A stretch of DNA of 18,219 nt, from contig JAAFIT010000007.1 of assembly GCA_013298745.1 (NCBI GenBank), positions 1-18,219 on the forward strand, written 5' to 3'. The notes beneath the pieces were generated by a model. It was not told the origin of the DNA, made no database searches, and saw only the letters and a list, made by a program, of their open reading frames with translations. The stretch is from Sphingomonadales bacterium. Its GTDB lineage: Bacteria > Pseudomonadota > Alphaproteobacteria > Sphingomonadales > Sphingomonadaceae. Below are positions 1,062 through 17,594 of the stretch, one piece after another. The stretch's first letter is position 1. Every line of letters begins with the position of its first letter. The position numbers were made by a program, and so were the translations under genes.

Positions 1062-1221
1062 GACCGATTGATGCAAAAACCGCGTTGGTCTTTGCAGGCT
1101 GTGTGCAAGCGCACCGAGTGACGTCGAAAACGACGCCTCGGCCGGGGAATGACGGGGCGTTGGCGCAGAGTTGAAGATTGCAGTGGGGAGGAGCTCTCGA
1201 TGTTTCAGGGGGTCTCTATCT

Positions 1222-3888
1222 ATGATGATGCAATCACGCCGCAAATCGCCATTTTTGAAGCTGTTGGGGTTGACGACAATCCTGTCCGGGATCGCCGTTC
1301 CAGCCACCGCCAATACGGTCGAGGCCGCTACCGATGCGGCGGCCGATGCTGCTGCTGAAGCGGCTCCCGAGGAAGGACTTGGCGAGATCATCGTCACGGC
1401 CACGCGGTCGTCGCAAAGCATTCAAAGGGTGCCAATCTCGATCACGGCGCTGACCGGCGACACGCTCGCCCAGCGCCAGGTCAAGGGCCTCAGCGATTTC
1501 GCAACATTGCTGCCGTCGGTGTCGTTTGCCGGCCTTGGCCCTGGTCGAAACGAGATTTTCTTCCGCGGCATCGTTCCGGCCGGCGGCGCCTATGCCTCGG
1601 TCGGCTTCTATCTCGACAATATTCCGATCGCCGGCGCCGGCCCGCCCGATATCCATGTCTATGATATGGAGCGCATCGAAGCGCTTTCGGGTCCGCAGGG
1701 CACGCTGTTCGGCGCCAGTTCGCTTGCGGGCACGATCCGCTTCATCACTAACAAGCCCAAGCTCGGCGAGTTCGAGGCGGGCTATGATCTTGAAGGCAAC
1801 AAGTTCGGCCCGGGCGGTTTCGGCGGTCAGATTCAGGCATTCGTCAACGTACCCGTCAGCGAAACCATCGCCGTGCGTGCCATGGGTTATTACCGCCGCG
1901 ACGGGGGTTATGTCGACAACACCCCCAACAACGGCACGTTCAACAATGGGGCGCCGGCGGTGCTGACGCTGGGCGACAACAATCCCGCCACCTTCTTCAA
2001 CCTCGACAACTCGGCGATCGCCAAGGACAATTACAACACTATCGATGAAGTCGGCGGCCGCTTGACCCTGCTTTGGGAACCCGCTGACGGCTGGCAGATC
2101 ACGCCGTCAATCACCGCGCAGCAGCAGATCTCGCGCGGCTATTTCGGCTTCGATCCGCGTCTCAGCGATCTCGAGGTTCATGACTATGAAACGACCCGTA
2201 ATCAGGATCGCTGGTATCAGGCATCGCTCAGCATCAACGGTCACATCGGTGACTGGGAAGTCGTTTCAGCGACAGGCTATTATTCGCGCAACGTCAAACT
2301 TCTCAACGATTACACCTATTATACCGTCACCTATGATGGCTTCGGCGCTGGTTACGAAAGCTATCTGCAATTCTTCGACAAGAGCGGCTGCACGGGCGCC
2401 GGTGTGACGCTGAAGTGCAGCAAATTGCTCAACCCGACGCAGTTTTTCAGCAACAACAACAATGATCGTCAATTCACCCAGGAAGTGCGGTTGAAGACGC
2501 CATCGTCATGGCCCTTCGACGTCACCATCGGCGGCTTTTTCCAGGATTGGAAAACCGAAGCCAACAATGATTATGCCATTCATGGGCTCTCCGACATTGT
2601 CGGGTATACAGCGGCAGGCGGTGGCGATGACCCCAACTTCGCCAACACCTTCGGGGTTCCAGAAGCCAATGGCGGCACCATGGTACTCGGATCGCCGGCC
2701 GTGAAGCGCGACGCTTTCTACATGACCGAGCAGGATCGGCATTACAAAGACTATGCCATCTTCGCCGAAGGCCATTACAACATCACACCGGAATTGAAGA
2801 TCACCGGCGGCATTCGGTATTTCTGGACGGAATCGACCGTTGTCGGCTTTGCCGGCGTTCAGGGGTCCGCCGCGAACACCGTCACCTCGCTGTTCGTGCC
2901 GACCAATACGCAGGGCTGCCCGACACCGTTCCCCGACAAGCGATTGCAGTGCCTCAACTCCAACTTCCTCGCGGCCGACCAGGTTGGCCGCTACAAGGAA
3001 CAGGGTGAAACCCACAAGATCGTGCTCGACTGGGAGTTCGCACCGTCGAAAATGGTCTATGCCAACTATTCAACGGGCTTCCGGCCCGGCGGCTTCAACC
3101 GGCCACTGCGCATCCGCGGCGTCGGCATTGCTGAAGTGCCACCGTTCGAATCCGAAGATCTGACCAACTATGAAATCGGCATCAAGACGACGTGGAACAA
3201 CATCTTCCGCTTCAACGCCGCAATGTATTTCCAGAAATGGAACAACATCCAATATGGCGTCGTTGTCTCGGGCGCCCAGGGCGCCGGCATCACCGGCAAT
3301 GCCGGCGTCGCGGAAGTCAAGGGTATCGAATATGATGCCAATCTGAAGCTCGGCGCGGTGACCATTTCGACATCGGGCGCTTACAACGATGGCAAGTTGA
3401 AGGGCGATTTCTGCAACTTTGCCGTCGACCGGACGACGCTGAAGATTTCGCAGCTTCAGACCTGCACGCTCGGCGAATTCGTTCCCGGATCAAGCCCGCC
3501 AACACCGCAGGTTGCCGCAGCCGATGGCACACGCCTGCCGCGTCAGCCGCGGTTCAAGGGCAACACATCGGTTCGTTATGACACGGAGTTCGACAAGTAT
3601 TCGGCCTATATTCAGGGTGCCGCCCTTTATCAGACCGATGCAACCTCGGATCTGAACGTCTCCGACAATGCCTTGTTCGGGAACACACCTGGCTTTGTCT
3701 CGTTCGATTTTTCGGCGGGTATCCGGCGCGACACCTGGAGCGTAGACCTGTTCCTCAACAATGCTTTCGACAAGCGCGGCGAATTGTCGAGGAACACCTT
3801 CTGCTCGATCACCTTCTGCTCGGGTTCTACACGCACCTTCGTCATCCGGCCGCAGTTCTTCGGTGTGCGCTTCGGCCAGCGCTTCTAA
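1222..3888 (+). CDS. TonB-dependent outer-membrane receptor
   Basis: This 888-residue protein would import a bound ligand across the outer membrane using TonB/ExbBD energy. I chose ATG 1222 because it gives a clean signal peptide (MMMQSRRKSPFLKLLG..., likely cleaved after ATA near residue 30) and has AGGGGG nine bases upstream. A TTG at 1171 in the same frame would bury the signal. After an Ala/Glu-rich linker (about residues 33-54) comes a TonB-box-like EIIVTATR (55-62). The plug domain follows, with VPISITAL, the FFRGI region, and YDMERIEALSGPQGTLFGASS ending in GTIRFITNKP. The long beta-barrel ends in VRFGQRF with the terminal Phe usual for outer-membrane barrels. Length fits the family. 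The ligand is unknown: no siderophore gene is nearby, and the downstream iorAB-like pair suggests an organic substrate, which is inference. Confidence 0.93.
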   Translation: MMMQSRRKSPFLKLLGLTTILSGIAVPATANTVEAATDAAADAAAEAAPEEGLGEIIVTATRSSQSIQRVPISITALTGDTLAQRQVKGLSDFATLLPSVSFAGLGPGRNEIFFRGIVPAGGAYASVGFYLDNIPIAGAGPPDIHVYDMERIEALSGPQGTLFGASSLAGTIRFITNKPKLGEFEAGYDLEGNKFGPGGFGGQIQAFVNVPVSETIAVRAMGYYRRDGGYVDNTPNNGTFNNGAPAVLTLGDNNPATFFNLDNSAIAKDNYNTIDEVGGRLTLLWEPADGWQITPSITAQQQISRGYFGFDPRLSDLEVHDYETTRNQDRWYQASLSINGHIGDWEVVSATGYYSRNVKLLNDYTYYTVTYDGFGAGYESYLQFFDKSGCTGAGVTLKCSKLLNPTQFFSNNNNDRQFTQEVRLKTPSSWPFDVTIGGFFQDWKTEANNDYAIHGLSDIVGYTAAGGGDDPNFANTFGVPEANGGTMVLGSPAVKRDAFYMTEQDRHYKDYAIFAEGHYNITPELKITGGIRYFWTESTVVGFAGVQGSAANTVTSLFVPTNTQGCPTPFPDKRLQCLNSNFLAADQVGRYKEQGETHKIVLDWEFAPSKMVYANYSTGFRPGGFNRPLRIRGVGIAEVPPFESEDLTNYEIGIKTTWNNIFRFNAAMYFQKWNNIQYGVVVSGAQGAGITGNAGVAEVKGIEYDANLKLGAVTISTSGAYNDGKLKGDFCNFAVDRTTLKISQLQTCTLGEFVPGSSPPTPQVAAADGTRLPRQPRFKGNTSVRYDTEFDKYSAYIQGAALYQTDATSDLNVSDNALFGNTPGFVSFDFSAGIRRDTWSVDLFLNNAFDKRGELSRNTFCSITFCSGSTRTFVIRPQFFGVRFGQRF

Positions 3889-4057
3889 CCACCCAGCGGC
3901 CATGGTCCGGGGCATGCCTCGCATCATGGCCGTCCCTGCCCCGGCGTGCGGGAACCAGAAGCGGCCAAAGCCGCCCCCGAAACACCGGACGGGACTTCTG
4001 CAATTCATGTGATAGGGTAGCACCGTCGGTGGAGACCCCTTGGGGAGACTGGTTTCG
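3889..4057. repeat. Intergenic segment with two interleaved 8-bp inverted repeats
   Basis: Two perfect stems overlap in an a-b-a'-b' order: CGGCCATG (3897-3904) with CATGGCCG (3925-3932), and CCGGGGCA (3907-3914) with TGCCCCGG (3937-3944). They could form alternative hairpins or a pseudoknot, not two nested stems. A third short stem, GCGGC/GCCGC, lies at 3961-3974. No T run follows, so a classical intrinsic terminator is not supported. The rest of the segment is the iorA leader, with GGGGAGA (4042-4048) as ribosome-binding site. Confidence 0.4.
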
Positions 4058-4515
<458 letters not shown>

Positions 4516-4519
<4 letters not shown>

Positions 4520-6681
4520 GCGGGATCGATCGGCGGCTGGTGCTGAAGGCAGCGCTGCTCACCGGCGGCGGATTGACGTTCAACGTCTCTGTGCCCGTCG
4601 CGGCGGCCAACACCGCGACGCGGCTCAATGCCTTCATCACCATCGCGCCCGACAACAAGGTCACCATCGGCGGCAGCTATCCCGAAATCGGCCAGGGAGC
4701 GCGGACGATGCTGCCGATGCTGATCGCCGAGGAACTGGATCTCGATTGGGCGCAAGTGCAGGCTGTTCCGACGCTCGCCGACGAAAAGGCCTTTGGGCAG
4801 CAGATCACCGGCGGCAGTGAAACAACACCGACGACATGGCTGCCGATGCGCAAGGTCGGCGCGGCGGCGCGGCAGCAATTGGTCATGGCGGCGGCCGCAA
4901 CCTGGGGTGTCGATGCCGCCAGCCTGACGACCGCCGCCGGTCATGTCAGCCATGCAGCCAGCGGGCGGCGGATTTCCTATGCGGCGCTTGCCGAAGCGGC
5001 CGCCAAGCAGCCGCCGCCGACCGATGCCAGTATCGTTCTCAAAAAGCCTGCGGATTTCCGCATCATTGGCACGTCGCGGACCGGCGTCGATACGCCGGCC
5101 ATCATCGCCGGCAAGCCGTTGTTCGGTATCGACACCAGCCTGCCCGGTATGGCCTATGCCGCGATCGAGATGTGCCCGGCGTTCGGCGGCACCATCGCCA
5201 AGGCCGATCTCGCCAAGGCGCGTGCCCTGCCCGGCGTGCGGCATGTGCTGACGCTCAATACCGGCATCAAGCCCGATGGCGCCGATGATGCTGTGGCGAT
5301 CGTCGCCGATAGCTGGTGGACCGCCGACAAAGCGCGCGCCGCGTTGCAGATCACCTGGGACGATGCCGCGCAGCGCCGCCATTCCACCGCCGGCTATGCC
5401 GACGCCGCTGCGAAGCTGATGGGTGCAAAGCCCGAAAAGGACTTGATCCGCACCGGTGATGCCGCGGCTGCACTGGCGAAATCGGCCAAGGTCATCGAGG
5501 CGGATTATCATTACCCCTTCCTCGCCCATGCCACGCTCGAGCCGCAGAACTGCACCGCGCTGTTCAAGGATGGCGCGATCGAAATCTGGGCGCCGACGCA
5601 ATGGCCCGAGGATGGCCGCGGGCTGGTCGCCAAGGCGCTTGGCCTCAAGCCAGAGGCGATCACCATCCATCTGGTGCGCGCCGGCGGTGGCTTCGGTCGG
5701 CGACTGCAGAATGATTACATGGTGCAGGTGGCACAGATTGCACGTGCTGTACCTGGTGTGCCGGTCAAGCTGATCAACAATCGCAGCGACGATATCCGGC
5801 ATGATTTTTACCGCCCTGCCGGCTGGCACCGGTTGAAAGCCGGCATCGACCCGAACGGCAAATTGCTGGCGATGACCAATCATTTCATCAGCTTCGGCGC
5901 CAATGGCAAGACGGTGCGCGCTGCCGAGTTCAACCCGGCCGAATTCCCGCTGCAACTGCTCGGCGATGTTCATGTCGGCCAGACGCTGATGGCGACGACC
6001 ATGCCGACCGGATGGCTGCGCGCGCCGACGTCCAATGCGATGGGTTTCGTCTTTCAAGGCTTCCTCGATGAAGTCGCGGTGGCTGGTGGGCGTGATCTGC
6101 CGACGCTGATGCGCGAACTGCTCGGCGCCCCGCGCGCGCTGCCGGATATGGACGGCATGCCGGGGTTCAACACCGGCCGGGCACGCGGCGTCATCGACAA
6201 GGTCTGCGCGATGGCGGGCTGGCCGAACACCCCCGCCGGCAAATCACGCGGCTTTGGCTTCTACTTCAGCCACCGCGGCTATTTCGCCGAAATCGTCGAA
6301 ATCAGCCTCACCGCCGGCGAAATCAAGGTTGAAACGGTTTTCGTCGCTGCGGATATCGGCAGCCAGATCATCAATCCGGTCAACGCCCGCCACCAGGTCG
6401 AAGGTGCGATCATCGATGGCCTTGGCCAGGCGCTGGCCGGGCAGGCGATCGAACTGGTCGATGGCGCCGTGACGCAGGCCAATTTCGACAGCTATCCGCT
6501 GCCCCGCATCGAGACGACGCCAAAGATCATCCTCGAATTTCTTGTCACCGATTTTCCTCCAACAGGCCTTGGCGAACCGTCGTTGCCGCCTGTCATCCCG
6601 GCATTGGCCAATGCCATTCATGCCGCCACCGGCAAACGCCTTCGCAGCCTGCCGATTTCCACGTCGATCACCACGGCCTGA
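4516..6681 (+). CDS. iorB: Isoquinoline 1-oxidoreductase beta-type molybdopterin subunit, Tat-exported
   Basis: This 721-residue catalytic subunit would hydroxylate an N-heterocycle or oxidise an aldehyde at a molybdenum-cytosine-dinucleotide site. The N-terminus has a Tat-type signal, DRRLVLKAALL (residues 5-15), and then VAAAN, so it is probably periplasmic. Moco-binding motifs are GGGFGRR (390-396) and the C-terminal GLGEPSLPP (684-692), whose E687 is the expected catalytic glutamate of the xanthine oxidase family. Length and order fit IorB-type proteins, which carry no FAD domain; electrons would leave through IorA and probably a cytochrome not encoded here. GGGAG lies seven bases before the ATG. 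No XdhC/CoxI-type Moco chaperone is in the window. Substrate is unknown; many homologues are named isoquinoline oxidoreductase without test, and aldehyde dehydrogenase activity is an alternative. Confidence 0.92.
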
Positions 6682-6828: not shown

Positions 6829-9800
6829 CTAGGCCGCTTGGGATTTCAACCGGATAGCGTGTGCTGCGGCACCCCGCGTCAGGTGCAGCGCCGCCGCTTG
6901 CTCATAAAGCCCGCGACTGCCGGGCTCGTCTCCCTGCAGTTTGGCAAGCTCGGCCCGCCATTCCAGCGCCCAGGGCCGCAACGCCTCGGCACCGGTGCGG
7001 GTCAGCACAGCTTCGACGCGATCAAGGACATGCTCGGCGGCAGCAACATCGCGGTCTCGGCGCATGAGGATAAGGACACGGACTCCGAGCGCTTGCAGTT
7101 CATACTGCCCGACCTCGCAATCGGCACATTGGCGGATTGCGTCATCGGCCCATTCGAGCGCTTCGGCATAGCGGCCAGCACCGAAATGGACGCGTGCCAT
7201 CAGCGTGGCGCCAACGCCGGCCCAATGCTGTTCGATCCGCTTGAAGACATCGACGGCCGCCTCCGCATAAGGATGCGCCGCCGCGTGGTCGCCGCGACCG
7301 AGATGCGCCCAAGTATAGGCAATATGGCGGTATGACGCGAGCAAGGGTGACCCCAATGTATCGCTGATTTCCTCGATGGCGCGGGCGTTTTCGAGGGACT
7401 TGGCGAAATCGCCCATCAGATAACCGACAGTCGCGAGCTGGAACGAACACCACCCCGCGACTTCGGGTGTACCATCGGCGAAGGCGAGCGTGCGGGCCTC
7501 CACAAGTTGTGCCTCCGCCTCCTCGAGCCGGCCCATCCAGCTCAATGTCACGCCGTTCATGAAGGCAAAGAAGCTATGGGGATTGAAGCCGGTGATCCAA
7601 TATTCCCGCGCAGTCTCGACAGGATAGGTCACCAGCAGAGTCTCGAGCAATTCCAGTGCCTGCGGAAAGCGGCAACTGTGGACGAGCGCATCGACGTAAA
7701 GAATGTTGGCGATGACCTTGAGCGCAAAATCATCGGTCTGCATCGCGGCGGCATGGTTTTCACTCGCCAGCGCGACATAGCCCTTCACATCGGCCGCACC
7801 GCACAACACCCGCGAGAAACAGATCGACAGCATCAGCGCGAGATCGGGCAGGCCCGCGGCAGTGGCGAGGCCTTGCGCCTCGGCGAGCACCGCCTCGGCA
7901 GCAGCTCGGTCAATGCCAACGCGGTAATTCATGTTGAGCAGCTGGATCGAAGCGGCGACCATGAAACCGAACGCCGCAGGGTCCGGCAGGCTGGTGCGCG
8001 CCAACACCCGCACCCGCTCCCAATGCCATGCCGACGTCGGAAAATCGGTTCGCGCCACGCGCTCGGCGGCCTTCTGGTGCCAGCCAGCGGCGATCAACGC
8101 CTCGCCCGCTTCCTCCCAGTGCATCGCCAGCGTCGCCGCGCGCTGATCGAGCCGATCGGCGTCTTCGGCCTCGATGCCGCGTGCAACCGCGGCGTTGATG
8201 GCACGGCGCTGGCCCTTCACCAGTGTCGAATGCGTCACTTCAAGTGTCAGCGGGTGCTTGAAGCCATATTCGGTGACGGGGAACACCGATTGTTCAACGA
8301 TGAACTCGTTGCGTCGCAGCGCTTGCAGCGCCGCCGCCAGCTCCGCCATTGGCATCGCGGTCGCGGCGGCGAGCAAGGGTTCCGAAAACACCCCGCCAAT
8401 CACCGACGCCACCTGCAGGACATTTTTCTCGCGCTCGCCAAGCCGATCGATACGGGCTTCGACCACCGCCTTGACCGTTGCCGGCACTTCGAGCCGATCG
8501 AAGCTGCCAACCAGCTTCCAGGCGCCACGATCGCCGACAATGTGACCGGTCTCGACGAGTGTCTGGAGAATTTCCTCGATGAAATAGGGGTTGCCCTTGG
8601 TCAGTGCGGCAATCGGCTGGCGCAGCACGGTGACACTGGGATCACTGCCGAGCAGTTCCGCCAGCAGCGCATCGACCGCCGTTTCGCCCAGCGGCAACAG
8701 CGAAATCTGTCGGCAGGCGCTGTGCTGCATCCAGTCGGCACGAAATTCCGGCCGGTAATTGAGCAGGATCAGGTAGCGGGTGCCGCTCTGCTGTTCGACC
8801 ATGGCTTCGAGGAACGCCCGGCTGGCGTCATCGATCCAGTGCAGATCCTCGATGAGCATGACCAGCGGATGATCGGCGCTGGCCAGCATGAACAAATGCC
8901 GGACCAGCGCGACGAGCTGGCGTTGCCGGGCTTCAGGATCGAGCGGCGGCATCGGGCGCTCCGGATCGGGAACCCCAAGGAAATCGAAAAGCGTCGGCAA
9001 CGCCGTTGCGAGGCGCGGATCGAGCTGGGTCAGTCGCGCTTCGATGCGGTCCCGCGCTGCCGCGTCGGGATCACGCGCATCAATGCCGAAAAAGTCCTTC
9101 AGCATCTCGATCATCGCCAACAAGGGCACATTGCGACCCTGCTGGGTGGCGCTGCCGCGATAGAATTGCGCCCCCGTATGGCGGCAATGTTCGGCGAATT
9201 CAAAGCACAACCGGCTCTTGCCGGCCCCGGCTTCGGCCATGATGCCGATGACCTGCCCGTTGCCGGCGGCGGATTTATCAAGCGCTTCGATAAGGGTGTT
9301 CAATTCGGTACTGCGACCGACAAATGGCGACAGGCCACGCGCCTGTGACAGATCGAACCGCGTATGCGTATCGGCTTCGCCAGTGACGGTGAAGGCGCGG
9401 GCGCCGAGTCGTTCGAGCTGGAAATAACCGCCGGCCAATCGCGCGCAGGCAACGCTGATCACCAGGCTGCCCGGCTCGGCCTGGGTCTGCAACTGGGCGC
9501 TGCCGTCCATTGCCGGGCCAGCCGGCAGGGCGCCGCTGCCGCCAATCACCACCGGGCCGCAATCGATCCCGATGCGCGCCAGAAACGGGCCGGCGCCCGC
9601 CAGCTTGAAGCCGGGCATCGCCGCATGAAGCGCGCGCCCGGCCAGAACGGCGCGCAAGGCATCATCCTCGCGGGTCGCATCGGCACCAAAAACCGCCGTC
9701 AGGCTTCCGCCCGCTCCGGGAAGGACCTTGCCGTCGAACGCGGCGACCTTGTCGGCAACGAGTTTGCGGAACCCTTCGGTGGCCTCGTGCCAGTCTTCCG

Positions 9801-10329
9801 GATCGGCTTCGCTGTCACCAACCAGCGCTGCGCTGAGAATCGCCACCTGCCGCCGCGCCTGCACCGATCGCGCCGGCGCCGGGGCGACAGGCTTGCTAGC
9901 CGCAGGCTCCGGCGGATTGCCGGCAAGACGCGCCGCACGACTGCCGATATGTGTCGCCACATCGGACCCAAACGCCAGCCAGCGTGGATCGGCAAGATCA
10001 CCGGCCCAGCCGCGCAGATCGGCCGATTGCGTGAGCTCGAACATGACCGGACGCTGGCAATCGTCGATCATCACGGGAACAAGACTGCCATTGCGCTGGG
10101 CAACCGTCGCTTCGGCACGCACCCAGCGCGAATCGACCGACCGCTTCGACCACAAGACGACAACGGCACCAGCCTCGTGCAGCGCGCGCTCGGTGACGCG
10201 GTCATAGTCCTGACCGCTCATCAGCGCGACGTCCCACCAGACATCAAAACCTTGCGCCATCAAGGCTTCGGCGAAAAAACGGGCTCTCGGCTGGTCATCC
10301 CGACTATATGATAGAAAGATATCCGGCAC
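6829..10329 (-). CDS. TIR domain / degenerate cyclase / AAA ATPase / TPR-like signalling protein
   Basis: This is a 1166-residue cytoplasmic multidomain protein. Residues 1-115 are a TIR domain (IFLSYSRDD at 4-12) with a WxxxE motif, W69 to E73; that glutamate is where TIR NADases have their catalytic residue. Residues about 160-325 align with class III cyclases (GIDCGPVVIG, QAEPGSLVIS), but key residues are changed, so it is probably inactive. Residues about 335-600 are an AAA/STAND-type ATPase: Walker A AEAGAGKS (365-372) and Walker B LVMLIEDLHWID (489-500). A winged-helix-like part contains YGFKHPLTLEV (688-698), and helical TPR-like repeats run to the end. The start is GTG 10329: an in-frame TAG lies 12 bases upstream, and AGGGGG precedes it. 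The helical repeats would sense a ligand, the ATPase would switch, and TIR would be the effector; that is inference. Regulation or defence are both possible. Confidence 0.88.
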   Translation of the reverse strand: MPDIFLSYSRDDQPRARFFAEALMAQGFDVWWDVALMSGQDYDRVTERALHEAGAVVVLWSKRSVDSRWVRAEATVAQRNGSLVPVMIDDCQRPVMFELTQSADLRGWAGDLADPRWLAFGSDVATHIGSRAARLAGNPPEPAASKPVAPAPARSVQARRQVAILSAALVGDSEADPEDWHEATEGFRKLVADKVAAFDGKVLPGAGGSLTAVFGADATREDDALRAVLAGRALHAAMPGFKLAGAGPFLARIGIDCGPVVIGGSGALPAGPAMDGSAQLQTQAEPGSLVISVACARLAGGYFQLERLGARAFTVTGEADTHTRFDLSQARGLSPFVGRSTELNTLIEALDKSAAGNGQVIGIMAEAGAGKSRLCFEFAEHCRHTGAQFYRGSATQQGRNVPLLAMIEMLKDFFGIDARDPDAAARDRIEARLTQLDPRLATALPTLFDFLGVPDPERPMPPLDPEARQRQLVALVRHLFMLASADHPLVMLIEDLHWIDDASRAFLEAMVEQQSGTRYLILLNYRPEFRADWMQHSACRQISLLPLGETAVDALLAELLGSDPSVTVLRQPIAALTKGNPYFIEEILQTLVETGHIVGDRGAWKLVGSFDRLEVPATVKAVVEARIDRLGEREKNVLQVASVIGGVFSEPLLAAATAMPMAELAAALQALRRNEFIVEQSVFPVTEYGFKHPLTLEVTHSTLVKGQRRAINAAVARGIEAEDADRLDQRAATLAMHWEEAGEALIAAGWHQKAAERVARTDFPTSAWHWERVRVLARTSLPDPAAFGFMVAASIQLLNMNYRVGIDRAAAEAVLAEAQGLATAAGLPDLALMLSICFSRVLCGAADVKGYVALASENHAAAMQTDDFALKVIANILYVDALVHSCRFPQALELLETLLVTYPVETAREYWITGFNPHSFFAFMNGVTLSWMGRLEEAEAQLVEARTLAFADGTPEVAGWCSFQLATVGYLMGDFAKSLENARAIEEISDTLGSPLLASYRHIAYTWAHLGRGDHAAAHPYAEAAVDVFKRIEQHWAGVGATLMARVHFGAGRYAEALEWADDAIRQCADCEVGQYELQALGVRVLILMRRDRDVAAAEHVLDRVEAVLTRTGAEALRPWALEWRAELAKLQGDEPGSRGLYEQAAALHLTRGAAAHAIRLKSQAA

Positions 10330-10350
10330 CCACGCCCCCTAGTTGCCCGG

Positions 10351-10379
10351 ATTCTAGTCCCATCGCCGCGAGGCGTCGA
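10351..10379 (-). promoter_or_regulatory. Candidate sigma70-type promoter for TIR gene
   Basis: On the minus strand: TCGACG (4 of 6), a 17-base spacer, then TAGAAT (5 of 6). The predicted start point near 10344 leaves about 15 bases of leader containing the AGGGGG ribosome-binding site before the GTG at 10329. Spacing, box quality and location agree, though this is by eye. No equally good plus-strand promoter for the FAD operon was found in 10380-10497. That stretch is locally AT-richer around 10441-10472. Confidence 0.4.
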
Positions 10380-10497
10380 GCCGCAAAGACGAATTTGAAA
10401 GATGTGATAGTTGGCGCTTGCGTTCGGCTGCCGGCTCGCACACATTTTGCGATAACAATATCTTGTAGTTTGCAAGTGACCGGGGGGTCGGGGCGGC

Positions 10498-12171
10498 ATG
10501 AGCGCTTTTCGGATCATCATTCTTGGCGGCGGAGTCGCGGGAATGAGCGCAGCACATGAACTCATCCACCGCACCGGCCAGTCGGCTGACTTCGAGATCC
10601 ACATTTTCGAAAAGCGCAGTGAAACCGTTGGCGGCAAGGCACGCTCGATCCCGGTGCCCGGCTCTGCCACCGGCGGCCGCGCGCCCCTGCCCGGTGAGCA
10701 TGGCTTTCGCTTTTTTCCCGGCTTCTACAAGCACTTGCCGGATACAATGGCGAGCATCCCCTATGGTGAAAGCACCGTTGTCGACAATCTTGTCGTGGCG
10801 GACCGGCTGGAAATCGCCCAGTTCGACAAGGACCCGATCGTCGTTGCCGCGCGCTTTCCGCGCACGCTCGATGATCTGATCACCGACATCGAAGCGATCT
10901 TCGGCGAGAACACCGGCCTCTTGCCGGGGGAGGCGCGGTTTTTCGCCGGCAAGCTCTGGCAGGTGCTGACCTCGTGCCAGGAGCGCCGGTTGGCAAGCTA
11001 TGAGAAGATCACCTGGTGGGATTATCTCGAAGCCGACACGCACTCCCCCGCTTACCGCAACCTTCTCGTCTCGGGGCTGTCGCGGTCGTTGCTCGCCAAT
11101 GATCCGACCAAGGCGAGCGTGCGCACGGTTGGCGACACGAACATCCAGCTGTTTCTCGGCATTCTCGAACCCGGACACCCGACCGACCGGCTTCTCAACG
11201 GCCCGACCAGCAAGGTCTGGCTCGATCCCTGGCGCCAGCACCTCGAACAACAGGGCGTCATCTTTCACATGGACAGCCCGGCCGCACGGATCGCGGTCGC
11301 CAACGGACGAGTTTCCGGTGTCACCGTGACGACGCCGCAGGGTGAGCGGACGGTGACGGCCGACGCCTATATCTGTGCGCTGCCGGTCGAGCGGATGGAA
11401 GAGCTCCTCGAAGCAAGCCGCGGCCCCGGCGATCCGGTCAAGGCCGATCCGTCGCTGGCCCATATCGCGGCGCTTGCCAAGGAAGTCAGCTGGATGAACG
11501 GCATCCAGTTCTTCCTGAAAACCGATGTGCCGATCACCCACGGCCATGTGCTTTACGCCGATTCACCCTGGGCACTGACATCGATTTCCGAAGCCCAGTT
11601 CTGGAGCAACGAGCATTTGCCCGGATGTGGCGACGGCACCGTCAACGGCATCCTGTCGGCCTGCATTTCGCAATGGGACACCCCTGGCATCCTCTATGGC
11701 CTGCCGGCGCGGCAGTGCACCCGCGCGCAAATTGCTGACGAAGTCTGGGCGCAGATCAAGCGATCGGTCAATGTCGGCGGCAAGACGCTGCTCACGGATG
11801 CCAATCGACACAGCTGGTTCCTCGATCCGGACCTGACCGAAACGGCCAACGGCGGGATCGAGATCAGCGATGCCGAACCGCTGTTCATCAACGTCACCGA
11901 CAGTTGGGCCATCCGCCCCGAAGCCGTGACAGCGATCCCCAATTTGTTGCTGGCATCGGATTATGTTCGCAGCTTTACCGATGTGGCGTGCATGGAAGCC
12001 GCCAACGAGACAGCGCGTCGTGCCGTCAACCAGATCCTCAAACTGGCAGGCAGCAATGCCGACCCCTGCACGCTCTGGCCGCTGCATGAACCCGACTGGC
12101 TGGCGCCGTTTCGCTGGCACGACAAGGTGCGGTTCGAGCTTGGATTGCCGTGGAACGGCCATTTGATTTGA
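10498..12171 (+). CDS. FAD-dependent oxidoreductase, amine-oxidase / phytoene-desaturase-like
   Basis: This 557-residue flavoprotein is the first gene of a three-gene operon. The N-terminal Rossmann motif is GGGVAGMSAA (10-19), with acidic E38 at the end of the second strand. Then come GGKARS (45-50) and GEHGFRFFPG (66-75), as in carotenoid-desaturase and hydroxysqualene-oxidoreductase-like flavoenzymes. The second FAD-binding segment is near the C-terminus, around IPNLLLASDYVRSF (480-493), followed by a helix rich in Ala. There is no signal peptide or clear membrane span. The family removes or adds hydride and often acts on hydrophobic substrates; the exact substrate cannot be read from sequence. 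Upstream G-rich sequence (10482-10496) serves as ribosome-binding site. The next start follows 13 bases after the stop, so co-transcription is nearly certain. Amine oxidase, desaturase and dehydroxylase activities are all open. Confidence 0.85.
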   Translation: MSAFRIIILGGGVAGMSAAHELIHRTGQSADFEIHIFEKRSETVGGKARSIPVPGSATGGRAPLPGEHGFRFFPGFYKHLPDTMASIPYGESTVVDNLVVADRLEIAQFDKDPIVVAARFPRTLDDLITDIEAIFGENTGLLPGEARFFAGKLWQVLTSCQERRLASYEKITWWDYLEADTHSPAYRNLLVSGLSRSLLANDPTKASVRTVGDTNIQLFLGILEPGHPTDRLLNGPTSKVWLDPWRQHLEQQGVIFHMDSPAARIAVANGRVSGVTVTTPQGERTVTADAYICALPVERMEELLEASRGPGDPVKADPSLAHIAALAKEVSWMNGIQFFLKTDVPITHGHVLYADSPWALTSISEAQFWSNEHLPGCGDGTVNGILSACISQWDTPGILYGLPARQCTRAQIADEVWAQIKRSVNVGGKTLLTDANRHSWFLDPDLTETANGGIEISDAEPLFINVTDSWAIRPEAVTAIPNLLLASDYVRSFTDVACMEAANETARRAVNQILKLAGSNADPCTLWPLHEPDWLAPFRWHDKVRFELGLPWNGHLI

Positions 12172-12184
12172 AGGCGAGACTATC

Positions 12185-13180
12185 ATGACCAGCAGCACGA
12201 CACGCACTCTGCCCGATTATGTCGTCCGGCCCGGCGATGCCTGCCATCTTCAGCCCTATGCCTGCCGAAATACCCAGCTCTATGGCTTTTTCCTCCAGGC
12301 GGATGCGGCAACCATTCAGGCCCGGCTCGTCGATCCGATCCTGAATGCCCCCAGCGGTGGCGCCATCAACTATCAGGTGCTGACCGGGCTCGTGCAGGTA
12401 ACCTATGCCTTTGCGGCGCAAGGATCGTCGACCCTGCCGCCCGACAATGGCTTTGGCTTCGTGCCGGAAAACAGCTGGACGATCTGGGTGCCGCTCGCGG
12501 TCATCAAGCATGAACTGGGGATCCCGTTCATCGAGCGGATCGTATTCTACCCGGCGTGGATCTGCGTCGACAACAGCTGGTCACTCGCGGCCGGCCGTGA
12601 AGTCTATGGCTTTCCCAAGGGCTATGGCCCGCTCGCCATCCCCAAGGCCGGCGAAGACCCGGCGGCATTTTCGGCGTCGACGCTGGTGCTGCCCGCCTAT
12701 GCGCCGGGCAACGAAGGCGCCATCGCACCGCTGATGACAGTGACACGCACCGCGCGCGGTGATGAAGCCGCGGAAATCTGGACCGATATCAAGCAAGCCA
12801 TCGCCGAAATCGCTGGCCTCTGGTCACATGGCGCTGGTCATTGGGCCCTGCCCAGCCTCAATCTCATCCTCGATATCGCCGGACTCATCCGCCACGAACA
12901 AGTGCCTGGCGTGTTTCTCAAGCAGTTCCGCGACGCGGCCGACGGCCACAAGGCGTGCTATCAGGCGATTGTCGAGGCTGCTTCCGGCGTCGACAAGCTG
13001 CACAGCGGCGGCCTGTTGACCGGCACTTATCAAGCGACCCTGCACAATTATGCCAGCCATCCGCTGGCAGACACGCTTGGGGTCAGCAGTGGCCCGCAGC
13101 CGCTGCTGTTTCCCTATTGGGTGAATTTCGATTTCACCATCGGTACCGGCACCACAGTCTGGAGCAGCAGCAATGGGTGA
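12185..13180 (+). CDS. Acetoacetate-decarboxylase-superfamily enzyme
   Basis: This 331-residue protein has the acetoacetate decarboxylase (ADC) signature GREVYGFPK (137-145). K145 matches the Schiff-base lysine of ADC. The classical enzyme has a second lysine next to it that lowers the first one's pKa; here it is G146. The superfamily also includes aldolase-dehydratase-type members using the same lysine, so decarboxylation of acetoacetate is not assured. The protein is longer than the classical ADC (about 245 residues), with a C-terminal extension of a few dozen residues ending near PLLFPYWVNFDF. It lies between two FAD oxidoreductases: 13 bases after the first, and overlapping the second by 8 bases, so all three should be made together. 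AAGGCGAG precedes the ATG. A role in making or processing a beta-keto or aldol intermediate passed to the flavoenzymes is inference. Confidence 0.82.
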   Translation: MTSSTTRTLPDYVVRPGDACHLQPYACRNTQLYGFFLQADAATIQARLVDPILNAPSGGAINYQVLTGLVQVTYAFAAQGSSTLPPDNGFGFVPENSWTIWVPLAVIKHELGIPFIERIVFYPAWICVDNSWSLAAGREVYGFPKGYGPLAIPKAGEDPAAFSASTLVLPAYAPGNEGAIAPLMTVTRTARGDEAAEIWTDIKQAIAEIAGLWSHGAGHWALPSLNLILDIAGLIRHEQVPGVFLKQFRDAADGHKACYQAIVEAASGVDKLHSGGLLTGTYQATLHNYASHPLADTLGVSSGPQPLLFPYWVNFDFTIGTGTTVWSSSNG

Positions 13181-15377
13181 TCCATCACCGCGGCGGAAGA
13201 TTGCCATTCTCGGTGGTGGCGTCGGCGCCATGACGGCGGCGTTCGAACTGACATCGGTGCCTGACTGGCAATCGAAATACGAGATCACCGTCTATCAGAT
13301 GGGGTGGCGGCTGGGCGGCAAGGGCGCCAGCGGCCGCAACCGCGCCCGGCATGATCGTATCGAGGAGCACGGCCTGCACCTGTGGTTCGGCTATTATGAA
13401 AACGCCTTCAACATCATCCAACGATGCTATGCCGAACTGGGTCGCTTGCCCGGTGAACCACTGGCGACCTGGCGTGACGCCTTCAAACCGCATTCGCTGT
13501 TCATCCTGATGCAGTTTCATGAAGCGAAATGGACGGAATGGCGGCTCAGCCCGCCGACGAACACACAAACACCGGGCGATGGCGTCGTGCCACCTTTCTG
13601 GGAGATCATCGACAAGCTTTTGAGCTTGCTCCATGTTCACTACGAGAACGAAGCAACACCGGCGGTGCGCGCGCTGGTGAACACGCCCGAGCATCATGAT
13701 CACCCGGGCTTTCTGGCGGGCCTTGTCGCCCATGTTCGGGACTGGCTGAGCGACAAGGCTGTCGAGGCAGCGGGACTGCTCACGGCCCGCAAGCTGGTTC
13801 AGGATGTTGCCGCGGCGCCGAACAATCCGGCAGCACACGCGGCCCTTGCCGATGCGGTCACCGGGCTGGAACATTTTGCCGGCGCAGTGCGCAAGGCGGT
13901 CGAAGCCAGCATCGGCGGCTTGATCGACGACCTTGCCGGGGATTTTCCGTTTCTGGCGCGTCTCGTCAGCCTGATCGAACTGGGTCTGGCGATGCTGCGC
14001 GGCATCATTGCCGACGATGTCGCCCGCAAAGGGTTCGATCAGCTTGATCACCTCGATCTGCGCGAATGGCTGGCCAGCCATGGTGCCGGGCAACTGGCAC
14101 TGGACAGCGACACGCTGCGCGCAGCCTATGAAAGCATCTTCGCCTATTCGCAGGGCTCCTATGAGCTTCCCAACCTCGCCGCCGGCACCGGCCTGCGCGG
14201 CTTGTTGCGCCTGTCACTGACCTACAAGGGGGCCTTTGCCTGGAAGATGCAGGCCGGAATGGGCGACACGATCTTTGCGCCCTTCTATCAGGTGCTCAAG
14301 CAGCGCGGCGTGAAGTTCGAATTCTTCAAGGCGGTCCGCGATATCGTGCCATCAAGCGACGGCAGCCGCATCGAAAAACTGGTGATCGGGCACCAGGCCA
14401 CGGTCATCAATGGCGAGTATAATCCGCTTTATAATGTCAATGGCCTCCCATGCTGGCCTTCGACCCCGGATTTCAGCCAGTTGAAGGAAAAGGACAAGCT
14501 CGAAGCCGGCAAGATCAACCTTGAATCGCACTGGACGCCGTGGGCTGATGTCGGCCAGACCACGCTTGTCGCCGACGTCGATTTTCATGAAATCGTGCTC
14601 GGCATTTCGCTGGGGGGGCTGCCGCATGTGGCACCCAAGCTGATTGATCAGAAGCCGGACTGGCAGGCGATGATCAAGAATGTCGAAGCCATCCAGACCC
14701 AGGCCTTCCAGATCTGGACGAAGCCCGATGCCGCCCATATGCGCACGCCGCGGCATGGTACGCATGACAATCCCGACGCCGAGCCACCGGTGTTCGGCGG
14801 GTTTGCCCAGCCGCACAATACCATTGCCGACATGAGCCATTTGTTGCCGCGCGAAAGCTGGCCGCCATCAACCGGGCCGCGCGCTGTCTATTATTTCTGC
14901 GGCCCCCTGTCCCAGCCGGCGGTGATGCCGCCGCGCACCGAGGCCGAATTTCCCCGGATTCAATCGATCAAGGCCAGCGCACGGGCATCGGAATGGCTGC
15001 GCAGCAACGCCCAGTTCGTGCTGCCGGGATCGATGTTTGCCGGTTACCCCGAAAGCTTTCCCGATACCTTCAACTTCAGCCTCTTGTACGATAGTGAGGG
15101 CCCGCAAGTCCCGGCCGTGGACCAGTTCGATCGGCAATTCTGGCGCGCCAACAGCGACCCGACCGAACTTTATGTGCTTTCGACAAAGGGCAGTACCAAA
15201 TTCCGTCTGCGCGCTGCGGCATCGGGCTATAGCAATCTCAAACTGGCGGGCGACTGGACGTACACCGGGCTCAACTATGGCTGTGTCGAGGCTGCAACAA
15301 TGTCAGGCATGGAAGCGGCGCGCGCCATTTGCGGATCACCCACGATCATCTTTGGCGAGAATTTTCCATTGCCTTGA
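13173..15377 (+). CDS. Large FAD/NAD(P)-binding oxidoreductase, amine-oxidase-like
   Basis: This 734-residue flavoprotein ends the three-gene operon. Its N-terminus has the dinucleotide motif GGGVGAMTAA (14-23), and YQMGWRLGGKGASGRN (41-56) replaces the usual acidic-residue-plus-GGR segment; Q42 stands where Glu or Asp is normal. EEHGLHLWFGYYENAF (64-79) follows. A helical insertion of about 180 residues (roughly 120-300) separates this from the substrate domain. The C-terminal FAD segment is LKLAGDWTYTGLNYG (689-703), then CVEAATMSGMEAARAI. No signal peptide is seen. The start ATG overlaps the upstream stop by 8 bases, with GGAG eight bases before it, giving translational coupling. It belongs to the same broad fold as the first operon gene but is clearly a different subfamily. 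Chemistry is unknown; desaturation, dehydroxylation or amine oxidation are possible. The gap to the convergent porin gene is only 9 bases. Confidence 0.85.
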   Translation: MGDPSPRRKIAILGGGVGAMTAAFELTSVPDWQSKYEITVYQMGWRLGGKGASGRNRARHDRIEEHGLHLWFGYYENAFNIIQRCYAELGRLPGEPLATWRDAFKPHSLFILMQFHEAKWTEWRLSPPTNTQTPGDGVVPPFWEIIDKLLSLLHVHYENEATPAVRALVNTPEHHDHPGFLAGLVAHVRDWLSDKAVEAAGLLTARKLVQDVAAAPNNPAAHAALADAVTGLEHFAGAVRKAVEASIGGLIDDLAGDFPFLARLVSLIELGLAMLRGIIADDVARKGFDQLDHLDLREWLASHGAGQLALDSDTLRAAYESIFAYSQGSYELPNLAAGTGLRGLLRLSLTYKGAFAWKMQAGMGDTIFAPFYQVLKQRGVKFEFFKAVRDIVPSSDGSRIEKLVIGHQATVINGEYNPLYNVNGLPCWPSTPDFSQLKEKDKLEAGKINLESHWTPWADVGQTTLVADVDFHEIVLGISLGGLPHVAPKLIDQKPDWQAMIKNVEAIQTQAFQIWTKPDAAHMRTPRHGTHDNPDAEPPVFGGFAQPHNTIADMSHLLPRESWPPSTGPRAVYYFCGPLSQPAVMPPRTEAEFPRIQSIKASARASEWLRSNAQFVLPGSMFAGYPESFPDTFNFSLLYDSEGPQVPAVDQFDRQFWRANSDPTELYVLSTKGSTKFRLRAAASGYSNLKLAGDWTYTGLNYGCVEAATMSGMEAARAICGSPTIIFGENFPLP

Positions 15378-15386
15378 ACGCGACGT

Positions 15387-16625
15387 TCAATACACCCACT
15401 GCCCGCGCAGCAACAGGCTGTCGGTACGGCCACGGATGCCGGCCTGTCGCGACCATGTCCGGCCGGCAACCGCCCCCCATTTCCACCGCGTCGTTGCCCA
15501 CCAATTGGCGCCGAACTCGATCCGGTCAAAGCTGCCGCCTCGCACGCTGCCGCTATCGAGATCGACCGCCGAATAGCGCGCCATCAGTTCGGGCGCCCCC
15601 CATCGCCCCGTCGGCGTCAAGCGGCGCGCAAGGCCGGCTGAGCGATCATAGGGACGGTTCTCGCCGGTCAGCACCCAGCTGCCGACGACATAAAAGCCCT
15701 GAAACATCGGATTGCCACGCTCCGGCGCCGACACCAGTGCCAGCACATATTCGCCCTGCACCGACATGCCGCCATTCGACCAGAGCCCCTCGACACCCAG
15801 GTGATTGGCGCCCTGCGCTGCAAAGTCACCAGTATCGACGAAATTGCTCGCCACATTGGAGCCAGGCCGGCCGCGATAGCGGATGACGCCATCGTCATCG
15901 GGGCGATGCCGCCAGCCAACCCCGACATGCAGGTAGCGACCAGCGTCCGACTCATCCCACAACAAGTGCGTCAGCCGCGCCGTGGCGCCGGTTCCGCTGC
16001 CCGAAAAGCCGAAACTGTCGCGGTAAATCCCCGCAGAGACCGTCCAGTCACGGTCCTTTCCGAACACATGCGTCGCCGAAATGCCAATGTTGCGCGACGC
16101 GGCGAACAGCCCGATCACCCGTTCACTTTGCGGCATGCTCGATGTGCTGGCGAGCGTTTCATAGGAAAAGGTCTCGCGGATCTGGCCGACATTGACGCGT
16201 GTTCCGGCGCTGTTGAACAGCCAGGTTGCCGACAGATCGGTCACATCCCAGTTGCGCTGCGGATCGATATCGAAGCCGCGATACTGCGCCGCGACCCGGT
16301 AGCTCAACCGGGTGTTATCCCAGATCTGGCCGGTCAATTGCAGCCGCGCGCTGCGCACTTCGAAACGGTCGTTCTGCACGCCGTGCAGCGCAACGCTCTG
16401 GGCGTCCTGATTGAAGCCGGTCCAGTCGGTGATCATCTCGGCGCTCCAGCGCGCCGTGAAACGTTGCAGCGCCAGATCGGGCAGAAGCCGTTGACCAACG
16501 GCGAGATCGGGAAAGGCAAAGCGCACGGGCGGCGGTGGTGGCGGCGCCTCCCCCTCGTCATCGCCTGGCGCGGCAGCGGCGCCACTCGCCACAAGAACCG
16601 CTGCCAACGCCAACCAGCGTTTCAG
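15387..16625 (-). CDS. OprO/OprP-like outer-membrane porin, probable CTG start
   Basis: This is a 412-residue beta-barrel protein of the phosphate-selective porin O/P type. The mature part is rich in alternating polar and aromatic strands: FEVRSARLQLTGQIWDNTRL, VNVGQIRETFSYETL, then FYVVGSWVLTGENRPYD, which is typical of the family. It ends in RGQWVY, with a terminal aromatic. A Pro-rich stretch (APPPPPP) follows the signal. The first ordinary alternative start, TTG 16613, would leave the signal with no positive charge. Extending to CTG 16625 gives MKRWLALAAVLVASGAAAA, a normal signal peptide, and the CTG overlaps the TGA of the upstream DUF202 gene as CTGA. No ATG or GTG exists between these. 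Despite the family name, the solute is not known to be phosphate. It is co-transcribed with the DUF202 gene. Confidence 0.85.
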   Translation of the reverse strand: MKRWLALAAVLVASGAAAAPGDDEGEAPPPPPPVRFAFPDLAVGQRLLPDLALQRFTARWSAEMITDWTGFNQDAQSVALHGVQNDRFEVRSARLQLTGQIWDNTRLSYRVAAQYRGFDIDPQRNWDVTDLSATWLFNSAGTRVNVGQIRETFSYETLASTSSMPQSERVIGLFAASRNIGISATHVFGKDRDWTVSAGIYRDSFGFSGSGTGATARLTHLLWDESDAGRYLHVGVGWRHRPDDDGVIRYRGRPGSNVASNFVDTGDFAAQGANHLGVEGLWSNGGMSVQGEYVLALVSAPERGNPMFQGFYVVGSWVLTGENRPYDRSAGLARRLTPTGRWGAPELMARYSAVDLDSGSVRGGSFDRIEFGANWWATTRWKWGAVAGRTWSRQAGIRGRTDSLLLRGQWVY

Positions 16626-17071
16626 AACGGCCCCGCACGGAAGATGATGCTGAGTGCCGTCGCCAGGCCCACCAGCGCCAGCAGGAAGGCGGTGACCAGC
16701 GTCAGCGAAATCGGGAACTCCTCATCCGGTGGCAGCAAACCCTGGGCGATGAAGTCGCGCCGTTGATCACGCACCGCCATCATGTAGCGATAATGGTTGG
16801 CGATCCCCAAAGCGAGCAGCAGCGTACCAAGGATGATCATCGTCAGGGCAAAGCGCGTCGGCGCCTGCTGCGGTAGCAGCCCCATCGCGCCATCGCGTTT
16901 GATGAAGTTGGTGGTGAAGGTATAAAGCGTGAAGCCGAAACCGATCATCGACAGCGACGTGCGCATTATCGCCATCAAGGTGCGATCGGCGGCGAGCCGG
17001 TTGCGGTGAAACGCCAGCGCGGTGCGCATCGCCGCCATCTTGTCGCCATTGCCAAGCTCATCATACTTCAT
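16622..17071 (-). CDS. DUF202 (YidH-type) small membrane protein
   Basis: This 149-residue inner-membrane protein of unknown function is the first gene of the minus-strand pair with the porin. The family signature is RNRLAADRTLMAIMRTSLSM (23-42) leading into the first membrane helix (about 33-54). Helices two and three are near 76-96 (FALTMIILGTLLLALGIANH) and 121-145. The conserved basic residues near the first helix are retained. ATG 17071 has GAGGAAA about ten bases upstream. Its TGA overlaps the proposed CTG start of the porin gene, so translation of the porin could depend on it. It is divergent from the DUF1622 gene across 136 bases. Family function is not established; the position beside a porin suggests an envelope role, which is inference only. 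Confidence 0.85.
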   Translation of the reverse strand: MKYDELGNGDKMAAMRTALAFHRNRLAADRTLMAIMRTSLSMIGFGFTLYTFTTNFIKRDGAMGLLPQQAPTRFALTMIILGTLLLALGIANHYRYMMAVRDQRRDFIAQGLLPPDEEFPISLTLVTAFLLALVGLATALSIIFRAGPF

Positions 17072-17207: not shown

Positions 17208-17594
17208 GTGATCGAGGAACTGTTTCAGGAGATCGCCGGCGGTGTTGCGCTGGCGCTCGAAGCAATGGTCGTGCTGATCATCGCCGGTGCCGCCATCAAG
17301 GCCATCATTCGCATGGCCCCCCTGCTCTTCCATGACGATCTGCTCGTCGAAGCGCGCCACGACATCTGGATGCGCTTTGCCACGACGATCATCCTGGCGC
17401 TCGAATTCACCTTGGCGGCCGACATCATCCGTTCCGCCGTGGCACCGACATGGGATGCCATCGGCCGGCTTGGCGCAATTGCCGGCATCCGGATCGCACT
17501 CAACTTCTTCCTGGCGCGCGACATCGAAACCCTCGCCGAAGGCCGGAAGCGGCGGATGGAGGCCGCCAAGGAGACTGGCAAGAGCGATGACTGA
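17208..17594 (+). CDS. DUF1622 small membrane protein
   Basis: This 128-residue protein has three predicted inner-membrane helices, at about 10-32, 53-75 and 84-104. The segment LALEFTLAADIIRSAV followed by GIRIALNFFLARDIE is the DUF1622 pattern. The C-terminus is basic and hydrophilic (EGRKRRMEAAKETGKSDD), probably cytoplasmic. GTG 17208 is the start: GAGGGG lies six bases upstream. The stop overlaps the next start by 8 bases (17587-17594), so the two genes are coupled. Function of the family is unknown. It is divergent from the DUF202-porin pair, suggesting a shared condition of expression. Confidence 0.85.
   Translation: MIEELFQEIAGGVALALEAMVVLIIAGAAIKAIIRMAPLLFHDDLLVEARHDIWMRFATTIILALEFTLAADIIRSAVAPTWDAIGRLGAIAGIRIALNFFLARDIETLAEGRKRRMEAAKETGKSDD

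Follow-up and report, generated by a model that had tools for sequence, protein, structure and literature searches.

This analysis focused on an 18,219-nucleotide stretch of a Sphingomonadales genome (contig JAAFIT010000007.1, assembly GCA_013298745.1; referred to as the window), in which genes for two flavoproteins, FADa and FADb, flank a gene for an acetoacetate decarboxylase-like (ADC-like) lysine enzyme. The ADC and FADb families, annotated merely as 'acetoacetate decarboxylase family protein' and 'NAD(P)-binding protein', were found to form one unit, tied to a STAND-class signalling ATPase. The ADC-FADb pair, of which no description was found in the open-access literature searched, appears to be a regulated, undescribed pathway that may handle a fat-like or terpene-like molecule. 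The chances appear about even that it is a conserved, scattered metabolic module that acts on a hydrophobic molecule under the control of the STAND protein, and for the many proteins with such uninformative annotations this offers a hypothesis that can be tested.

The three genes lie on one strand, with 13 bases (12172-12184) between FADa and ADC and an 8-base overlap (13173-13180) between ADC and FADb, in agreement with a first-pass annotation made from the sequence alone. The grouping is more than chance, because the same genes are kept in the same order in two Novosphingobium genomes (L003 and L004, the nearest loci with these genes; 54-68% identity). A scan with an ADC alignment, using one genome per species, gave at least 36 loci (L001, L002, L039 and the short loci L040-L069 are excluded from the counts). 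Among the matches listed, FADb lay inside the fetched flanks at 24 of the 36, and at 20 of these 24 the two matches were on the same strand with a gap of no more than 171 bp; the linked loci came from records titled as ten phyla, several of them metagenome bins. A STAND gene separates ADC from FADb at L016 and L018, and looser links were seen at L034 (1.1 kb) and L035 (4 kb, opposite strands), those of Rokubacteria and Gemmatimonadota being the loosest of the set. The 12 ADC loci with no nearby FADb, again among the matches listed, comprised nine from Chloroflexota and three distant ADC-superfamily hits (L036-L038), of which the ADC profile matched L038 alone, and weakly; these three were excluded from the linkage and STAND categories. 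The Chloroflexota loci (L009, L010, L015, L019, L023, L024, L025, L028 and L031), three of them on contigs shorter than 7 kb, make up an ADC-like clade without FADb in the stretch, and form one side of a split (support 0.988) in an ADC tree that included 33 of 37 linked loci, with fragments dropped. When the 24 linked host genomes were searched whole, most FADb and ADC matches fell at the common locus, with further copies or fragments in G452, G453, G465 and G466.

Whole-phylum samples, in which each protein was searched separately to avoid selecting by linkage, gave the same picture. Among 195 Myxococcota genomes (including the previously known carriers G452 and G462), ADC was detected in 15 (17 genes, E<=1e-10) and FADb in 23 (E<=1e-60), and all 17 ADC genes were 5-99 bp from a FADb match (hypergeometric 5e-17, with no phylogenetic correction). 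ADC occurred in seven of 244 Cyanobacteria (G446 was the seed) and FADb in the identical seven (1e-13), with gaps of 74-154 bp in six and 1320 bp in one. Among 385 Alphaproteobacteria, only the window's own genome carried ADC, while FADb was present in three, the other two having no detected ADC and one of them lying on a 4.7-kb contig. FADb was thus seen without detected ADC in 8/23 Myxococcota and 2/3 alphaproteobacterial genomes. Of the 23 Myxococcota genomes with FADb, 17 were covered over longer stretches (20 in all) and G462 as L029, but G484, G563, G564, G567 and G568 not at length. At L092 a divergent ADC domain escapes the ADC profile, so some of the loci scored as FADb alone may hold ADC; the 317-residue product of the gene after FADb at L093 had no Pfam match. 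The first-pass annotation had taken rare co-occurrence of the homologues as grounds to give up a common pathway; this is not what was seen, every ADC gene from the two phylum samples being near an FADb.

Both domains were present in a single stop-free frame at 12 loci, with L092 a thirteenth by Pfam. The order was ADC-FADb in L006 and L073 and FADb-ADC in the ten others, some of which are close relatives, and several database proteins are also fusions (e.g., P0166). Because fusion has occurred in both orders, proximity of the two enzymes appears to have been selected repeatedly. Other fusions were also seen: FADb is joined to a TerB domain (PF05099) in P0230, without ADC, and in P0238, with ADC, while in P0100 ADC follows an N-terminal PF10604 domain.

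The first-pass annotation's view that three enzymes serve one pathway is therefore supported for ADC and FADb, by their linkage and fusions, but not for FADa as a constant member. FADa is found in the window, L003 and L004 (66-68% identity); in an Anaerolineaceae locus (L030, order STAND-FAD-ADC-FADb) the flavoprotein in its position is only 24% identical over 276 residues, and elsewhere a second FADb takes its place (e.g., L021, L033, L070-L072, L083 and L091). Two flavoproteins with one ADC is accordingly a recurring but not universal form. FADa relatives (41-47% identity) were also found on 15 plasmid records, which gave no ADC match.

The window ADC matched Pfam ADC (PF06314) with 34.3 bits (cut-off 29.8), and its predicted fold is that of the ADC-like superfamily. 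As a single sequence it found no solved structure at E<=1, and the ADC profile matched ADC-superfamily chains weakly (best E 0.0026). Lys145 is invariant in the 26 ADC-like sequences aligned and corresponds to the first Lys of GFPKK in solved enzymes of the superfamily; in keeping with the earlier description of a lysine enzyme, the protein is predicted from this alignment to form a Schiff base through Lys145. In true acetoacetate decarboxylase, Lys116 is the second active-site lysine. That position is Lys in none of the 26 sequences, being G, E, N or another residue in all of them (Gly at residue 146 of the window protein). Compared with the solved members (ADC, MppR, Sbi_00515, Swit_4259), to which it is 10-20% identical, the window enzyme is longer (331 residues against about 244-266), and proteins of its type carry the conserved C-terminal motifs VFLKQFRD and ACYQAIVE. 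Acetoacetate or a polar amine was dropped as first choice of substrate because of the fold, the missing second lysine and the fusions.

FADa and FADb belong to two different subfamilies, as had been claimed, since BLAST similarity (E<=1e-4) was limited to about their first 75-80 residues. Pfam assigned both to Amino_oxidase (8.8e-16 for FADa, 1.8e-7 for FADb) and NAD_binding_8 (1.4e-8 for FADb). At least 6361 homologues of FADb were counted. As single sequences neither flavoprotein matched a solved structure at E<=0.001, nor did the FADb profile match one. The modelled fold of FADb is closest to plant phytoene desaturase and appears to be of that type, which supports its earlier labelling as desaturase-like; FADb is, however, longer than phytoene desaturase 5mog (734 against 470 residues), and we infer that a largely helical stretch at about residues 140-350 holds most of the extra length. 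FADa and FADb also share partial matches to the HpnE model TIGR03467 (68.3 and 46.9 bits), far under the equivalog cut-off of 283. Scores with the phytoene/zeta-carotene desaturase models were also well below cut-off (TIGR02732, 38 bits for FADa and 45.1 for FADb against 622; TIGR02731, 31.3 bits for FADa against 569, with no FADb entry). Unlike phytoene desaturase and HpnE, FADb was usually found with ADC, a STAND gene or both at the loci read.

A recurrent partner overlooked in the first-pass annotation is the divergently oriented STAND gene. Its window product matched TIR_2, AAA_16 (3e-26) and TPR_12 (1.2e-6; 29.0 bits, just below the cut-off of 30.1), and is a STAND (AAA_16) signalling ATPase with TPR repeats. 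With a profile built from eight proteins, which match by construction, a STAND gene was detected at 23 of 37 ADC-FADb loci, within 2.1 kb of ADC or FADb and in most cases adjoining one of them. The same profile detected one at 8 of the 12 FADb-only loci and at one of the nine unlinked-ADC loci, there 7 kb away. All six further cyanobacterial loci had one, making 7/7 of the cyanobacterial sample with L005. Domain layouts included kinase, AAA_16, GAF and histidine kinase (L005, L091, L107, L112), kinase, AAA_16, GAF and cyclase (L026), cyclase, AAA_16 and TPR (L012, and L092, where a Crp/Fnr gene follows), and TIR with AAA_16 (window, L020), while at L016 AAA_16 was seen with no recognised output domain. 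In class III nucleotide cyclases two Asp residues bind metal, and in TIR domains a conserved glutamate has a functional role. The window, L004 and L020 proteins lack both cyclase Asp residues but retain the TIR glutamate; the Asp pair is present in L012, L092 and L026.

The window protein shares the cyclase-AAA_16-TPR layout of TOMM kinase/cyclase fusions (TIGR03903), but differs in its N-terminal TIR domain and lost cyclase Asp pair; with 266.2 bits against a cut-off of 705.75, a TOMM assignment was rejected on this score. TIGR03903 was searched in 21 whole genomes (E<=1e-30). The single match was the ADC-FADb neighbour in the window genome (79% complete), G445, G457 and G465, lay beside a partial ADC match (C110) in G453, and was on another contig in G444, whose locus L003 ends inside its STAND gene; G446 had one match, G447 none above threshold, and the remaining 13 genomes 2 to 20 each. 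The three cyanobacterial partner proteins scanned resemble the dual kinases of the cbSTKIII/HstK family (PMC2176072) in having a Ser/Thr kinase at the N-terminus, GAF, and a histidine kinase at the C-terminus; the window protein has neither kinase, and the passages of that article consulted make no connection to ADC-FADb.

Clues to the substrate are each partial, but taken together they favour a hydrophobic, perhaps isoprenoid, molecule. In one cyanobacterium (G863) a squalene/phytoene synthase gene lies between ADC and FADb. Six myxobacterial FADb loci without ADC (L076-L080 and L088) encode a polyprenyl synthetase 46-49% identical to one beside FADa in Ruegeria, and two records each from Ruegeria and Streptomyces place a polyprenyl synthetase next to a relative of FADa (a fourth bacterial record carried no annotation). 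FadL/TodX outer-membrane transporter genes stand beside the pair at L016, L026 and L091, being convergent after ADC in Microvirga (L016) and Azospirillum (L091), and a TonB receptor gene adjoins FADb at L035. The earlier statement that no transporter is adjacent does not hold for the window, where a Porin_O_P gene converges on FADb; in line with what had been stated, none of the nine window proteins scanned was recognised as a polyketide or terpene synthase.

Searches for the G863 synthase gave no relative in the 60 remaining genomes of its family (E<=1e-25) or at the other ADC/FADb loci searched (no hit below E 0.2), and a general link to squalene/phytoene synthases was rejected on this account. 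An SQS_PSY gene was present in 21/21 host genomes searched, which means little because 7/14 controls also had one. Three archaeal records of FADa relatives had no polyprenyl synthetase annotated, and the Ruegeria FADa cluster continues with acyl-CoA dehydrogenase, acetate-CoA ligase and carnitinyl-CoA dehydratase genes, which fits breakdown too.

In the module proposed here, the ADC-superfamily enzyme would bind a keto (or beta-keto acid) group as a Schiff base through Lys145, and FADb would desaturate, dehydrogenate or isomerise the same hydrophobic molecule. An unstable intermediate may pass directly from one enzyme to the other, which would account for the fusions, and in sphingomonads FADa could contribute a second redox step. 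The most likely substrate would be a polyprenoid or a comparable long, hydrophobic compound, imported by FadL in some hosts or built from prenyl diphosphates. The adjacent STAND protein would sense a cue or metabolite and control the module through phosphorylation, cyclic nucleotide or TIR signalling, depending on lineage. Should the substrate prove isoprenoid, Schiff-base chemistry would here serve terpenoid or lipid metabolism in a new way. A bolder version, offered tentatively and probably not correct in full, is a new class of signal-gated metabolic system, horizontally spread over many phyla, in which a STAND receptor with exchangeable outputs governs a fused ADC-like/desaturase-like two-enzyme machine for the synthesis or breakdown of a signal or protective lipid derived from a polyprenoid.

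Much less probable than the proposed module is a catabolic role, with an exogenous terpene, steroid or fatty-acid-like compound imported by FadL or TonB proteins and the STAND protein acting as a MalT-like inducer sensor. The transporter neighbours and Ruegeria acyl-CoA-type genes described above are consistent with it, as are the TonB receptor, molybdo-hydroxylase-type and porin genes of the window. However, relatives of the three FadL proteins, the window porin and the window TonB receptor were not found at the other loci (tblastn, and BLASTP in eight loci), in a search of limited sensitivity that also missed the TonB receptor at L035, and genes for prenyl-chain synthesis occur in G863 and at the FADa loci of Ruegeria and Streptomyces.

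An NLR/STAND-type signalling or anti-phage system, with the STAND protein as detector of invasion or stress and ADC-FADb as an enzymatic effector that makes or destroys a redox metabolite, is improbable, even though the TIR-AAA_16-TPR architecture with its conserved glutamate, the way in which kinase, cyclase, histidine kinase and TIR domains replace one another beside a constant ATPase, and the rare, scattered distribution (seen above in Alphaproteobacteria) would all suit it. The pair or FADb is also found on large plasmids, and PDDEXK nuclease and recombinase genes are present in the Rufibacter stretch. Against this, the enzymes are constant and the STAND protein variable or absent, and the FadL and Crp/Fnr genes at some loci suit metabolism better; PADLOC gave weak, domain-level TIR hits only (best 1.1e-8) and none for ADC or FADb, and a known TIR defence system (Thoeris or other) was not favoured on these hits. 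Least probable is that each enzyme has its own, unrelated small substrate (amino acids or amines for the flavoproteins, acetoacetate for ADC) and that the three are grouped for co-regulation only, given the repeated fusions in both orders, the constant presence of FADb with ADC in two phylum samples, and the loss of the second lysine in 26/26 sequences.

Table 1. Features of the window in and around the ADC-FADb module.
Feature	Position	Strand	Description
FADa	10498-12171	+	557 aa; FAD-dependent amine-oxidase/HpnE-type flavoprotein; variable extra module member
ADC-like lysine (Schiff-base) enzyme	12185-13180	+	331 aa; core member
Codon of Lys145, predicted Schiff-base lysine, within GREVYGFPK	12617-12619	+	
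FADb	13173-15377	+	734 aa; large flavoprotein of predicted phytoene-desaturase fold; core member
STAND signalling protein	6829-10329	-	1166 aa; TIR, degenerate nucleotide cyclase, AAA_16, TPR; divergent partner gene
TIR domain, residues 4-108, with conserved SRWVRxE glutamate	10006-10320	-	
AAA_16 ATPase domain, residues 335-522	8764-9327	-	
Divergent intergenic region, possible shared control region	10330-10497	.	168 bp
Porin_O_P outer-membrane porin gene, convergent with FADb	15387-16613	-	Pfam
DUF202 gene	16622-17071	-	
DUF1622 gene	17208-17594	+	

The source genome is a draft of 525 contigs, 78.8% complete with 5.3% contamination, and the window takes up the full length of its contig (18,219 nucleotides). 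The divergent intergenic region held one promoter-like match (9/12; minus strand, 10379-10351), pointing at the STAND gene, in a total of 2 against a shuffle mean of 1.4, and counts of promoters and terminators were no higher than in shuffled sequence. Upstream (1171-6681, plus strand) are a TonB-dependent receptor gene, a [2Fe-2S] subunit gene and a large open reading frame (721 residues), the last two presumably encoding a molybdo-hydroxylase-type enzyme.

Some related clusters have features of their own. In the Myxococcota loci (L076:7079-18521, L077-L080 and L088), the polyprenyl synthetase and FADb are accompanied by a STAND protein of the kinase/cyclase type. A saccharopine-dehydrogenase-like gene is present at four of these six loci, and two shared open reading frames without assigned function (413 and 213 residues) at five. 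The Ruegeria plasmids (L094:3021-11190 and L101:7026-15190) encode an adenylate/guanylate cyclase protein, a Linocin_M18 encapsulin shell, DUF3237, a FADa-type flavoprotein and polyprenyl synthetase, possibly an encapsulated prenoid-processing flavoenzyme.

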